64,000 nucleotides of DNA, from positions 2,716,001 through 2,780,000 of the forward strand of contig NZ_CP011071.1 of assembly GCF_000963865.1 (NCBI RefSeq), read 5' to 3'. The position numbers were made by a program, and so were the translations under genes. The notes beneath the pieces were generated by a model. That model had not been told where the DNA came from. It did no database searches and saw only the letters and a list, made by a program, of their open reading frames with translations. Below, one piece after another: positions 39,311-43,697 of this stretch. This stretch comes from Flagellimonas lutaonensis (GTDB taxonomy: Bacteria > Bacteroidota > Bacteroidia > Flavobacteriales > Flavobacteriaceae). Numbering within the stretch: the first letter of the stretch is position 1; the number at the start of each line of letters is the position of its first letter.

Positions 39311-42300
39311 TTAAAATTTTGCGTTTAGACTGATTCCGTAGCCCCTACTTGAAGGTACACCATAATATTCCAATCCTTGTGCATTACTCACGTTATAAGC
39401 ACTTTCAGGGTCAATGTTGTCAACACTTCTTTTTAAGAAAAATAGGTTGTTGCCAATAAGCGAAACATTTACACTTTGCAGAAACGTTCTATCCAACAAA
39501 TTTCGAGGCAAACTGTAGCCAATGCTCAACTGTCTAAAGCTTATAAAATCAGAATCTTCGACAAATTGCTCTGCTATATCATTGATTCTGCCATAATAGG
39601 TTTGAAGATTTTCAGGGTCCACAGTTGTGGTAAAAGGTTGGCCGGTTGCCCCATCAATTCCAGAGACTGTAAGGCCATTCTCTCGTCCTTCCAAAGTTGC
39701 CTTGTGAAGTCCGTTGCCATAAGCCACAGTATTGGTGCCAGAGAAAATTTGGCCACCAAACTTACCATCGATCAAGAAATACAATGAAAAATCTTTATAG
39801 GTAAAAGTGTTGGAAAAGCCAACAATCCATGGGGGCACACCTTCTCCTAAAATTTTACGTTCACCAATTTGAGCCAAGGGCACCCCATCGCTGTCTATAT
39901 CGTAAATGATATTGCCATTGTCATCCCTTACATAAGAGACCCCATAAATAACTCCATAGGGTTCCCCAACAATTTGTCTGATCTCGACATTCCGTGTTCG
40001 TGGCTCTCCAAGACCAATCGACCCTTCTTCTTCATTGGTTGCCAGCACCTTTCCCTCGTTAAAGGTCAGATTAAAACTTGCGTTCCATCTAAAATCTGCT
40101 GTTTGGATCGGTGTCCCGGTCAATAAAAGTTCAACACCTTTATTTTGTACTTCACCTATGTTGGCCAGTGCGCTTCCATACCCCGAAGCAACTGAAGTGG
40201 TCACTGGCACGATGTCATTGGTGGTCTTGTTTGTGTAATATGCAATATCAATTCCCAAACGATTGTTAAAGAACCTGGCATCGACCCCTATCTCCGTTTC
40301 ACTTTTATTGAAAGGAACAAGATTTGCGTTTGGCACCGAATTTCCATTAATTCCACCAAGTGGCTGCCCTAAATGACCTTGACCGAAAATTTGGTATGTC
40401 AAAGCAAGCTGGTAAGGTTCTTGCGCCCCACCGGCTACTTCAGAATACCCTCCCCTTAACTTTAGGAAGCTTATTGGCTCTGGCAAATCCAATGCATCGG
40501 AGAGCACCAAACTGGCATTTACCGAAGGATAGAATTGATCGTTGGGTGTTTCCTTTCCAGGGAAAGACAGTGTTGAGAACCAGTCATTTCTACCCGTAAA
40601 GGTAATAAAGGCCCAGTTATCATAAGAAAGCTCCAAAGAGCCGTAAACAGAACCAATTTTTCGTTCGCCGAAATTTCTGCTTCTTGATTGGTTTTGTGTG
40701 TTGCCAACATCCTCAAGGCCTGGAACAATAAAATTCTCTCCTCGTTGTCCTAAAAACTCATCTTTGATATGGTTGCTGTTGGCACCCACAAAGGCAACGG
40801 CCCCGATTTTGTCGGTAATATCTTTCTCGACCCCCAAAATCAAATCAGCATCAATTTGGGTGTACCTGGTTTCATTTTCATTGATGGCACCAAGGGGGCG
40901 GTAAGCCGTACCGAATGGTTCAACCGAGGTTCCCCTTATGGTATAATGGTCAATACCGGCCCTTCCTGTTAGGTATAGCCAATCTGTAATATCGTATCGA
41001 AGTGTGGTAGAAGCGATCAAACGGTTTCGAACATCTTCATTTCTGAAGTTGTACGCCGCGAAATATGGATTTTGTGAAAAGGTGTTGGAAGAATATTGTC
41101 TTTCAGTACCATCAGGGTTGGTACCTGGATCCATAGTGCGAACATCGACATTCGGAGGCAGGTTCAAGACCGTGAAGTTCGGGTTACCAGGGGCATCCGA
41201 AAGTCTCGGCCTGTTATTGGCCTCTTCCAATATATACTTAACATTAACCTGGCTGGTTAGCTTTTCACCAAGATTGGCACCTGCATTCAAAGAAAAGGTT
41301 TTTCTGTTCACCTTTGAATTGGGAACCACATCATTTGCGGTCAGGTCAGAGGCAGCAAAACGATAATTCATTTGCTCAGAGCCACTGGTAAGTGCCACGG
41401 TGTTTATAAAGGTTGTCCCCGTTCTATAGAAGTGGTCCAGATTGCTTCCAACATATGAGTATGGTCTTTCAACCCCGTCCCACTGAACTACCGGTGAGCC
41501 ATCCAATCGTGCTCCCCAAGAAGAAAGGCCAATGTCGAACGCTTCTTCTTGGTTGGCAGGCTTTCTGCCGAAGCGGCCTTGACCGTACTCCGTCTGAAAA
41601 TCTTGTATATCTGTATTTACCCTGTTAAAGGTTATTTGGCTGCTGACCTCAACACCCAAGCCTTGTCTTCTTTGTCCGGCTTTGGTGGTCACCAATATAA
41701 CACCGTTTGCTGCTCGTGATCCGTAAAGGGCAGATGCGGCCCCCCCTTTAAGAACACTGACAGATTCGATTTCATCAGGGTTCAAACTCGATACGCCATC
41801 ACCTCCGTCGTTGCCGCCCCAGAGACTGGCCGAGCCATTGTTTTCGTTACTAATAGGAATACCATCAACCACATAAAGGGGTTGGTTGTTTCCCGTTAAT
41901 GAACTGGAACCACGAATAATAACCCTACTTGAACCGGCAGCACCGGTTGCGTTTTGTGAAATATTTACACCCGCAATCTTACCTTGAAGCGCATTGATGG
42001 CATTCGGCTGTTTGATCGTTGCCAATTCTTCACCGCCAACCTCGGTCAACGAATAACCAAGTGCCTTGGTCTCTTTTCTGATACCAAGTGCGGTCACCAC
42101 TACTTCATCGAGCAGTTCCGTATCAGGATTCAAGGTTACATTGATCGTTCTCTGCGAGCCTACGGCAACCTCTGTTGACGTAAAGCCCAACGAAGAAAAC
42201 TCTAGGATCGCTGAGGGCCCTGAAACCGTGATTGTGTAATTACCATCGAAATCGGTGGAGGTACCATTGGCGGTACCCTTCTCAATAACGTTGGCGCCAG

Positions 42301-42421
42301 GTAGGGGAGCCCCACTCTCTCCATCCGTGACTGTACCTGAGACGGTCACGTTCTGTGCCATTATACTGCTTGTCAGCAGTACACCGGCAACCATTAAAAA
42401 GTAACGAAGTTTTTTGTACAT
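39311..42421 (-). CDS. SusC/RagA family TonB-dependent transporter
   Basis: A 1036-residue outer-membrane protein. A signal peptide ends near MAQ; then a carboxypeptidase-like CNA-B domain (VSGTVTDGESGAPLPGANV), the TonB box region (LDEVVVTALGIRKETKALGYS), the plug (INALQGKIAGVNI, NQPLYVVDGIPI, SVLKGGAASALYGSRAANGVILVTTK, the SusC signature), and a long beta-barrel ending in a typical GYGISLNAKF. With SusD it imports a ligand using TonB energy. It is the first gene of the leftward locus. No ECF sigma/anti-sigma pair, hybrid two-component sensor or AraC-type regulator is next to it. Confidence 0.95.
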   Translation of the reverse strand: MYKKLRYFLMVAGVLLTSSIMAQNVTVSGTVTDGESGAPLPGANVIEKGTANGTSTDFDGNYTITVSGPSAILEFSSLGFTSTEVAVGSQRTINVTLNPDTELLDEVVVTALGIRKETKALGYSLTEVGGEELATIKQPNAINALQGKIAGVNISQNATGAAGSSRVIIRGSSSLTGNNQPLYVVDGIPISNENNGSASLWGGNDGGDGVSSLNPDEIESVSVLKGGAASALYGSRAANGVILVTTKAGQRRQGLGVEVSSQITFNRVNTDIQDFQTEYGQGRFGRKPANQEEAFDIGLSSWGARLDGSPVVQWDGVERPYSYVGSNLDHFYRTGTTFINTVALTSGSEQMNYRFAASDLTANDVVPNSKVNRKTFSLNAGANLGEKLTSQVNVKYILEEANNRPRLSDAPGNPNFTVLNLPPNVDVRTMDPGTNPDGTERQYSSNTFSQNPYFAAYNFRNEDVRNRLIASTTLRYDITDWLYLTGRAGIDHYTIRGTSVEPFGTAYRPLGAINENETRYTQIDADLILGVEKDITDKIGAVAFVGANSNHIKDEFLGQRGENFIVPGLEDVGNTQNQSRSRNFGERKIGSVYGSLELSYDNWAFITFTGRNDWFSTLSFPGKETPNDQFYPSVNASLVLSDALDLPEPISFLKLRGGYSEVAGGAQEPYQLALTYQIFGQGHLGQPLGGINGNSVPNANLVPFNKSETEIGVDARFFNNRLGIDIAYYTNKTTNDIVPVTTSVASGYGSALANIGEVQNKGVELLLTGTPIQTADFRWNASFNLTFNEGKVLATNEEEGSIGLGEPRTRNVEIRQIVGEPYGVIYGVSYVRDDNGNIIYDIDSDGVPLAQIGERKILGEGVPPWIVGFSNTFTYKDFSLYFLIDGKFGGQIFSGTNTVAYGNGLHKATLEGRENGLTVSGIDGATGQPFTTTVDPENLQTYYGRINDIAEQFVEDSDFISFRQLSIGYSLPRNLLDRTFLQSVNVSLIGNNLFFLKRSVDNIDPESAYNVSNAQGLEYYGVPSSRGYGISLNAKF

Positions 42422-42728: not shown

Positions 42729-42730
42729 AT

Positions 42731-42760
42731 AAAAAAAGCCCTCGATTTTCGAGAGCTTTG
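42731..42760 (-). terminator. Terminator copy behind the GIY-YIG gene / partial tRNA
   Basis: On the - strand GCTCTCGA, AAA, TCGAGGGC followed by a T-run. It is identical to the terminator behind the intact tRNA-Met and belongs to the duplicated 60 bases. Confidence 0.8.
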
Positions 42761-42762
42761 AG

Positions 42763-42815
42763 TAGCGAGAGGGGGACTTGAACCCCCGTCCGCCTCAGGC
42801 GGATATGAATCCTGC
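42763..42815 (-). pseudogene. Partial tRNA-Met: 3' half copy from the anticodon arm onward
   Basis: On the - strand it begins GCAGGATTCATA, the same anticodon arm as the intact tRNA-Met. It then has TCCGCCTGAGGCGGA, a perfect palindrome around CTGAG, where the tRNA has ACCCTGAGGT. From there the T arm and acceptor strand are identical. The 5' half of the tRNA is absent. The first part doubles as the last codons of the GIY-YIG gene (AGFISA, stop). Confidence 0.8.
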
Positions 42816-43067
42816 TTCCCGGTCAAAGCGCTCTCTGATCCATGCCCTGCCCACCCCTGATTTAAAGTACTTCTCCCTTTGCCGTGCCTCTTCTTTGGTT
42901 CTGTAGAATTCTACATGAATGACCTTCCATGGCCTGAATTTGACCGTATAGCCCTTGTTTGCTAGTTCGTTGTGCGATTTAAACCTTTCGACCAATGAGG
43001 CGGTATGCCCCTTGTAGAATATGTCATGTTCAGCGGAGTATAATATGTAAACTACGAATTCAGCCAT
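42795..43067 (-). CDS. Small GIY-YIG nuclease (UPF0213/YhbQ-like)
   Basis: A 90-residue single-domain protein. The motif elements are VYILYSAEHDIFYKGHT (the GIY and YIG positions), R in VERFKSHN, and E in ARQREKYFKSGVGR. Stand-alone GIY-YIG proteins of this size are very common in Bacteroidota. In some groups this fold works as a homing endonuclease and in others in DNA repair. Here the 3' end of the gene is tRNA-derived, so its last six residues come from a tRNA anticodon arm. It lies 42 bases downstream of the intact tRNA-Met on the same strand, behind the tRNA terminator. ATG at 43067 is the only sensible start. Confidence 0.85.
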   Translation of the reverse strand: MAEFVVYILYSAEHDIFYKGHTASLVERFKSHNELANKGYTVKFRPWKVIHVEFYRTKEEARQREKYFKSGVGRAWIRERFDREAGFISA

Positions 43068-43079
43068 GTTATCAAATAA

Positions 43080-43107
43080 AAAAAGCCCTCGATTTTCGAG
43101 AGCTTTG
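43080..43107 (-). terminator. tRNA-Met terminator
   Basis: On the - strand, just past the tRNA discriminator base: GCTCTCGA, AAA, TCGAGGGC and a T-run. It also lies between the tRNA and the GIY-YIG gene. Confidence 0.8.
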
Positions 43108-43109
43108 AG

Positions 43110-43183
43110 TAGCGAGAGGGGGACTTGAACCCCCGACCTCAGGGTTATGAATCCTGCGCTCTAACCACCTGAGCTACCTCGCC
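43110..43183 (-). tRNA. tRNA-Met (CAT)
   Basis: 74 bases fold as a cloverleaf: acceptor GGCGAGG with UCUCGCU (two G-U pairs), D arm from AGCTCAGGTGGTTAGAGC, anticodon arm CAGGATTCATAACCCTG with CAT anticodon, and T arm GGGGGTTCAAGTCCCCC. The discriminator is A and CCA is not encoded. An elongator tRNA-Met is most likely. A CAT-anticodon tRNA-Ile matured by TilS is an alternative that anticodon alone cannot exclude. Confidence 0.95.
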
Positions 43184-43313: not shown

Positions 43314-43697
43314 ATGGGCGATAAGGTAAAATTTGAAATTGAGTTTGTGATCCAGTCATCACCCCAATTGCTCTATCAATATATTTCTACCCCCTCCGGG
43401 CTTTCTGAGTGGTTTGCCGACAATGTGAACTCCCGAGGCGAAATCTTCAATTTTATATGGGATGGCGCCGAAGAAAGTGCCAAACTATTAAAAAGGAAAA
43501 GCGACGAGTTTGTCAGATTTGCTTGGGAAGAAAACGAAGATGATAGCTTTTTCGAAATGCGGATAATCGTTGACGAAATCACCAAAGATGTTTCGTTGTT
43601 CATAACAGATTTTGCCGAAGAGGATGAACTTGAGGAGGCCAAAATGCTTTGGAAAAACCAGATTTCAAGCCTTAAGCAAGTACTGGGCTCAACCTGA
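43314..43697 (+). CDS. START-like domain protein
   Basis: A 127-residue cytoplasmic protein. KFEIEFVIQSSPQLLYQYISTPSGLSEWFADNVNS and the later FEMRIIVDEITKDVSLFITDFAEEDEL match a START/SRPBCC-like family found widely in Bacteroidota. Its ligand is unknown. An intrinsic terminator follows directly, so it appears to be a single-gene unit. The start at 43314 fits family members. Confidence 0.8.
   Translation: MGDKVKFEIEFVIQSSPQLLYQYISTPSGLSEWFADNVNSRGEIFNFIWDGAEESAKLLKRKSDEFVRFAWEENEDDSFFEMRIIVDEITKDVSLFITDFAEEDELEEAKMLWKNQISSLKQVLGST

Follow-up and report, generated by a model that had tools for sequence, protein, structure and literature searches.

Small GIY-YIG genes with second copies of their host tRNA genes: a probable family of homing-like chromosomal elements in Flavobacteriaceae and beyond

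The element described here is a unit of one small GIY-YIG gene and a second copy of the host tRNA gene, which is usually partial and in many cases disrupted by a hairpin. Units of this kind probably constitute a large family of chromosomal, homing-like, tRNA-specific minimal GIY-YIG elements, a reading to which we assign, mechanism included, a probability of about 0.68. The layout, its recurrence at many tRNAs, the fidelity of lineages to particular tRNAs, the empty sites in congeners, and the tandem arrays are all seen directly in the genomes.

The window, a 64-kb stretch of the Flagellimonas lutaonensis chromosome, contains a single tRNA gene according to ARAGORN, a tRNA-Met(CAT) on the minus strand at 43109–43183 (Rfam RF00005, 64 bits). 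Read along the minus strand, the intact tRNA-Met is followed by a terminator-like hairpin and T-run (43076–43108, evident from the sequence and lying within a repeat), the GIY-YIG gene (42795–43067), a partial second copy of tRNA-Met (42762–42815), and, from the repeat comparison, a second copy of the terminator-like sequence (42729–42761). The initial annotation had reported a perfect 60-base direct repeat and a cassette length of 347 bases, and the comparison agrees: 42729–42788 on the remnant side equals 43076–43135 on the side of the intact tRNA, both read on the minus strand, with perfect identity over 60 bases, 62/63 matches when extended, and a spacing of 347. The remnant corresponds to tRNA positions 27–75 (87% by blastn over 54 columns, and by the repeats), and the anticodon-arm block said to be common to both copies is located at 42801–42815 on the remnant side. 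The remnant is broken by a 15-nt GC-rich perfect hairpin, TCCGCCTGAGGCGGA on the minus strand (42789–42803; TCCGCC-TGA-GGCGGA), which folds as DNA and, judged by eye, occupies the place of the anticodon-stem 3′ strand and variable loop of the intact tRNA-Met. The stop codon of the GIY-YIG gene (42797–42795), already placed within the tRNA-derived copy, lies more exactly inside this hairpin, which is absent from the initial annotation. The pattern CCGCCTSAGGCGG occurs once in the 64-kb window versus zero times in 100 shuffles, and the duplication of tRNA-Met is far beyond chance.

The single gene between the repeats, as first described, is indeed a GIY-YIG gene, encoding 90 aa (Pfam PF01541, E 1.7e-16; AlphaFold mean pLDDT 87). 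It is the only ORF of at least 50 aa in the 347-bp unit, which bears out the earlier statement that the cassette lacks a recombinase. A group I intron or IStron around the nuclease gene was rejected, since an Rfam gathering scan of the window and five loci of this genome for self-splicing RNAs returned tRNA only. The cassette is flanked by a plus-strand gene of 127 aa at 43314–43697, presumably START/SRPBCC-like, which served as the synteny anchor for the empty-site comparison, and by a minus-strand gene at 39311–42421, which we take to encode a TonB-dependent receptor/SusC-like protein.

Residues Y7, S11, Y18, G20, R28, H32, E65, and K69 are invariant across 20 diverse members, and the PF01541 match together with Y7, Y18, G20, R28, and E65 places the protein in the GIY-YIG superfamily. 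The Tyr, Arg, and Glu of GIY-YIG enzymes have catalytic roles, and the invariant residues are those expected of an active nuclease. The window protein matched PF01541 only, with no HUH (Y1) transposase domain. An AlphaFold model built from 19 sequences (mean pLDDT 87) predicts a bare GIY-YIG domain with a C-terminal helix, and the protein of ~90 aa is modeled without a separate DNA-binding domain. By both sequence and fold, the closest solved relatives are UPF0213 (1zg2, 1ywl) and SLX1 (7cq2, 6seh), with Foldseek E values of only ~1e-3; SLX1 is a eukaryotic repair nuclease that acts on branched DNA and works with its partner SLX4. When the protein from the tRNA-Arg site of this genome was compared with phage genes, the matches were confined to genes of Rhizobium phages (10 among 50,697 records, with 42% identity across 73% of the query), and it gave no match in plasmids and no confirmed viral contig. 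On these searches with the Arg-site protein alone, a phage or plasmid origin was rejected.

The 3.27-Mb genome of F. lutaonensis has nine GIY-YIG matches, six of them small, and three of these six lie at tRNAs with partial second copies, namely Met, Arg(TCG), and Asn. None of the three sites is occupied in the congeners G001 and G002, while congener G003, a fragmented draft, gave no match at any of them. The empty site expected of relatives, with one tRNA and one terminator, is found at the Met site of G002, where both run straight into a relative of the downstream receptor gene (39311–42421). In the alignment to this site, the segment from tRNA position 27 up to and including the terminator appears twice in the F. 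lutaonensis genome. Across 30 of the 37 matching genomes, tRNA-Met and the neighbor at 43314–43697 occur together in 28 loci, F. lutaonensis included, and occupancy is 1/28, in F. lutaonensis only (locus L127 ends 2 bases after the tRNA, where an element would not be visible). Synteny on the expected strand holds for 16 of 29 loci at the Asn site and 16 of 28 at the Arg site, with F. lutaonensis again the one occupied locus among each 16; at the Asn site, L297 ends 99 bases after the tRNA, beyond which an element would escape view. Occupied and empty alleles thus exist at one defined site, as for a homing element.

At the Arg site, the remnant still has its native flank upstream, and the intact tRNA lies downstream of the gene. 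The two Met 3′ halves and their terminators are identical within the F. lutaonensis genome, so a half supplied by a foreign donor is not demonstrable there. The intact tRNA-Met is likewise identical to the empty allele of G001, and the self-immunity of a homing endonuclease is therefore not evident. The occupied tRNA-Asn (L276, 1996–2070) differs at several positions from the alleles of both congeners (L277, L278) and resembles those of other genera, a difference that, judged from the sequences, could be due to co-conversion with the insertion or to ancestry.

A profile made from the three F. lutaonensis proteins matches 106 of 149 genomes of the family. From the matches listed, all but three of which were used, 118 stretches were taken (29, plus 9 array stretches, plus 80, with one overlapping pair), and a tree was built from 95 columns of 120 genes, including six F. 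lutaonensis genes and one gene of G002 and omitting four short or broken genes (L028, L038, L146, and L190). A fork that separates 85 genes from 35 has a support of 100/92; with 95 columns only, many inner forks are unresolved. Within the clade of 85, 76 genes lie no more than 250 bp from a tRNA or a fragment of one, versus 0 of the 35 in the sister clade. The nine without one in reach are L050, L145, L157, L176, L184, L193, L195, L167, which ends at a contig edge, and L191, where a tRNA-Phe lies just beyond the 250-bp limit. The initial annotation had named GIY-YIG genes at non-tRNA sites as evidence against itself; the tree contains 44 such genes, but 35 of them form the separate sister clade.

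The same layout, which had been anticipated at other tRNAs with the matching halves, recurs at many tRNA species: 14 isoacceptors are represented among the 76 tRNA-linked genes, and the wider set of loci adds Arg(CCT), Arg(CCG), Ser(GCT), Ser(GGA), Leu(GAG), and Glu. The isoacceptor changes 22 times on the tree, versus a mean of 55.8 and a minimum of 50 in 300 shuffles, and the side on which the intact tRNA lies changes 7 times, versus a mean of 22.4 and a minimum of 15. Leu, Ser, Pro(GGG), His, and Phe are each confined to a single group that spans genera, Met has a group of eight and two outsiders (L045 and L093), and Pro(TGG) a group of four and a single outsider (L201), while Arg, Asn, Val, and Asp each appear in more than one place. 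Sub-clades thus largely keep to one tRNA across genera, and the elements show the lineage-specific target sites of homing elements, with outliers such as the three just named.

The anatomy of the elements was examined in 142 loci, comprising the 85 clade loci, the four short genes, and 53 phylum-wide or named loci off the tree, after the removal of two duplicates (L030, identical to L101, and L253, identical to L023); further species overlap is possible within this set. An intact tRNA lies within 300 bp in 114 of the 142 loci and is on the strand of the gene in 114/114. It precedes the gene in 69 loci (type A), follows it in 43 (type B), and lies between genes in 2. A second copy of the same tRNA is present on the far side in 93 of the 114, against ~3 expected by chance, with a cut-off that demands a score above all 40 simple shuffles of the far-side region. 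Most second copies are partial and a few are nearly complete (e.g., L235, L257, and L258). The 28 loci without an intact tRNA divide into 15 with a fragment and 13 with none. Lineages fall into two sets by their leftover, some with a 3′ piece of the tRNA and others with a 5′ piece. The earlier proposal that the element would supply a replacement 3′ half so that one tRNA survives needs correction on this point: one complete tRNA is kept, but in type B the leftover is a 5′ piece. The type-B ORF ends inside the intact tRNA in 26 of 43 loci, at tRNA position 10 in 14 cases and at position 23 in 8.

Tandem arrays of at least two genes occur in 42 of the 142 loci, with up to six genes per stretch, and tRNA remnants lie between the genes in most mapped arrays. 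Several draft contigs (G021:C4, G021:C5, G030:C12, G106:C63, L245, L252, and L255) terminate at these genes or next to them, and the number of arrays may therefore be underestimated in short-read assemblies. Nuclease-free arrays of hairpin-broken pseudo-tRNAs also precede intact tRNAs at L026 (983–1327 of the reverse complement) and L046 (857–1173), with spacings of 94 and 78, respectively, and one array copy in L026 resembles a hybrid of broken and intact tRNA.

With hairpins next to T or A runs excluded, a GC hairpin accompanies the gene in 52 of 85 clade loci, compared with 2 of 35 sister-clade loci and 22 of 374 background windows placed at least 500 nt from the gene. Because 52/85 remained under this exclusion, the hairpin as a mere terminator was rejected. 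The other 33 clade loci have no hairpin near the gene. The second copies contain 58 insertions of at least 8 nt, 34 of which fold better than simple shuffles (z < −1) and 24 of which do not. The hairpin is thus common but not universal. Nor do the counts support a hairpin in every partial copy; of the first 29 loci, 21 have a tRNA in reach. Type-B insertions are often clean, with zero tRNA bases lost (e.g., after position 22 in Arg, Ala, and one Met), and clean hairpin insertions occur in Leu after position 8 and/or 23; assigned by eye, the clean insertions sit in tRNA loops or junctions. Hairpin classes change 15 times on the nuclease tree, versus a mean of 31.1 and a minimum of 25 in shuffles.

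Hairpins are also found beyond the elements. The TCCCGATNNNNATCGGGA hairpin is present in 67 of 149 genomes at 0–90 copies per genome, with 15 copies in F. lutaonensis, while control matches occur in two genomes only. It is found in 61 of 106 genomes with a GIY-YIG match versus 6 of 43 without (p 7e-7), and among genomes of at least 2.5 Mb (rounded sizes) in 56/96 versus 5/26 (p 7e-4); the GIY-YIG matches behind this association mix both clades, and ancestry may account for part of it. None of the eight TCCCGAT hairpin copies examined in F. lutaonensis is near a tRNA; in two of them, L268 and L273, the hairpin TCCCGATAGCTATCGGGA (1501–1518) appears by eye to lie in the middle of a different repeat, as though hairpins were entering the loops of other hairpins. 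The CCTG-type hairpin is rare, with 17 places in 8 genomes, a count on which its candidacy as a high-copy REP was rejected; six of the 17 lie within 100 bp of a GIY-YIG gene. Sister-clade genes have flanks that are alike on both sides in 26 of 35 loci, versus 42 of 197 mismatched pairs, and these flank repeats, which include those of F. lutaonensis (L001, L002, and L003), look REP-like by eye. A perfect inverted repeat of 26 bp surrounds the gene domain in L002, and the tRNA-Ser remnant 5′ of the gene in L035 contains a row of four similar hairpin-like repeats.

The elements extend beyond the family. The initial annotation had proposed a search of Bacteroidota for GIY-YIG genes beside tRNAs; a profile of 20 clade members matches 249 of 395 genomes of the phylum, and all of the 30 best loci (30/30, two of them already known) lie beside a tRNA or tRNA fragment. 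Among 26 named loci matched by the window protein, 16 of which are labeled Flavobacterium, 23 have a tRNA or fragment; the other three are L246, L255, and L266, the last two at contig starts. A metagenome bin labeled Patescibacteria contains an element at tRNA-Leu(GAG) (L264, 760–1260), with a hairpin cleanly inserted after tRNA position 8, the same place as in the tRNA-Leu(CAA) of G002, which suggests either cross-phylum spread or mis-binning.

From these arrangements we infer how cleavage, movement, and the hairpin may work together. The nuclease would cut the cognate tRNA gene in an uninvaded chromosome, and recombinational repair from an element-bearing copy would then bring in the gene together with half a tRNA to replace the displaced one, the 3′ half in type A and the 5′ half in type B. 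One complete tRNA would remain, with the displaced half persisting as the remnant, and further rounds of cleavage and repair at the intact tRNA would give rise to tandem arrays. The likeliest role of the hairpin is either to prevent the remnant from serving as a target or as a functional tRNA, or to be itself a structure on which the enzyme acts. Several features speak against this reading: the identity of the intact tRNA-Met with the empty allele of G001, the identical Met 3′ halves, the predicted bare domain of ~90 aa, small for a protein that would have to tell tRNAs apart, the nine clade genes with no tRNA in reach, the 33 clade loci lacking a nearby hairpin, and the Met (L045, L093) and Pro (L201) labels outside their main groups.

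The hairpins invite a different account, in which a palindrome-associated GIY-YIG enzyme spreads small hairpins and tRNA genes are its stem-loop landing sites, with the tRNA duplication a by-product that allows the host to survive. RAYT enzymes, on which such a lifestyle is modeled, are HUH transposases. The present elements may resemble RAYT/REP (REPIN) systems in having a small nuclease gene with short palindromes and dispersed non-autonomous hairpins, and they differ in their GIY-YIG protein, as opposed to an HUH transposase, and in the involvement of tRNA genes. Clean insertions in tRNA loops or junctions without loss of a tRNA base agree with this account, as do hairpin classes that track the nuclease tree (15 versus 31.1 changes), the dispersal of TCCCGATNNNNATCGGGA in 67/149 genomes with enrichment where GIY-YIG matches occur, the like flanks of 26/35 sister-clade loci, and sequence and fold neighbors that include a branched-DNA nuclease, SLX1. 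However, 11 of the 17 CCTG-type hairpins lie away from any GIY-YIG gene, 0/8 of the TCCCGAT copies are by a tRNA, the association with genomes may be phylogenetic and mixes the clades, 24/58 insertions fold no better than shuffles, and perfect GC hairpins are few in the sister clade (2/35); on balance, we consider this account rather improbable. A broader version is somewhat better placed but still tentative: a bacterial GIY-YIG superfamily whose members are paired with their own DNA hairpins, in which one clade would be associated with REP-like palindromes and the other with tRNA genes, and structure-specific nucleases would move tiny palindromes, or bring about their movement, into stem-loop DNA. 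As part of the same tentative proposal, the carried replacement tRNA half would make tRNA genes safe landing sites. If so, a RAYT-like lifestyle would have been invented a second time by an unrelated nuclease.

The remaining alternatives are far less probable. A resident tRNA-directed nuclease, such as a defense or addiction module for which the tRNA copy is an expression platform or decoy, might explain why 26 of 43 type-B ORFs end in the intact tRNA, an arrangement that would couple mRNA decay to tRNA maturation, and the pseudo-tRNA arrays do resemble decoys; patchy occupancy at the Met, Asn, and Arg sites and decayed copies with internal stops make such a function quite unlikely. Slightly less credible still is a passive history, in which a tandem duplication of the tRNA preceded the arrival or origin of a small gene between the two copies and the decay of one of them. 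Plain duplications of tRNAs do occur, as do arrays of pseudo-tRNAs (L026, L046), but an old tandem tRNA array, listed in the initial annotation as a possible refutation, is contradicted by the single-tRNA empty sites in congeners and was rejected on them, and the presence of one gene clade at 14 isoacceptors in 76 loci with lineage fidelity, as well as strand agreement in 114/114, also argues against passivity. Integrase islands are typically recognized by direct repeats of tRNA 3′ ends, which favors integration of this type at the tRNA 3′ end by a recombinase acting in trans or since lost. This is the least plausible of the explanations weighed here: the 347-bp unit has no recombinase, the intact tRNA follows the gene in 43 of 114 loci where the leftovers are 5′ pieces, many copies are hairpin-interrupted, and the GIY-YIG gene is the constant part. 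A recombinase island was rejected on the first two of these points.

Homing-like spread, the preferred reading, has precedents. SegB of phages T4/T6 is a free-standing GIY-YIG homing endonuclease that cuts in tRNA genes, drives tRNA-segB tandem repeats by recombination, and has a gene whose 3′ end shares microhomology with the 5′ end of the tRNA (PMC13096335). The present elements share with it a GIY-YIG gene beside tRNA genes and tandem repeats; unlike these chromosomal elements, SegB is phage-borne and, in the part of the source available, reported without isotype preference, and the same part of the source does not mention the hairpin-interrupted half-tRNAs and one-tRNA chromosomal lineages seen here (PMC13096335). 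Mobile ORF elements of Glomus and Allomyces mitochondria provide a second parallel, as an endonuclease element enters an essential gene, supplies a replacement 3′ end, and leaves the displaced native end behind, with a GIY-YIG enzyme in the atp9 case (PMC3630166). Those elements invade protein genes in fungal mitochondria, whereas the targets here are tRNA genes, and the available part of their description covers only 3′ ends and mentions no hairpins, while 5′ halves are also found here (PMC3630166). In the open-access literature, preprints being outside the scope, none of the matches listed describes chromosomal GIY-YIG genes with tRNA remnants or REP-like hairpins. The elements are probably best placed with the free-standing homing endonucleases, although their pairing with hairpins could make them a separate kind.

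If the homing-like reading is correct, these elements are selfish units of ~300–400 bp with one gene of ~90 codons that invade chromosomal tRNA genes without a recombinase of their own and spread by carrying half of the tRNA gene that they break. Such units would account for many of the solitary small GIY-YIG genes and partial repeats of tRNAs that these genomes contain. They would also link the duplication of chromosomal tRNA genes to nuclease activity, as is the case for SegB in phages, and provide a family of very small nucleases, every one with a tRNA gene of its own, as a natural test set for how tiny GIY-YIG proteins choose their targets.
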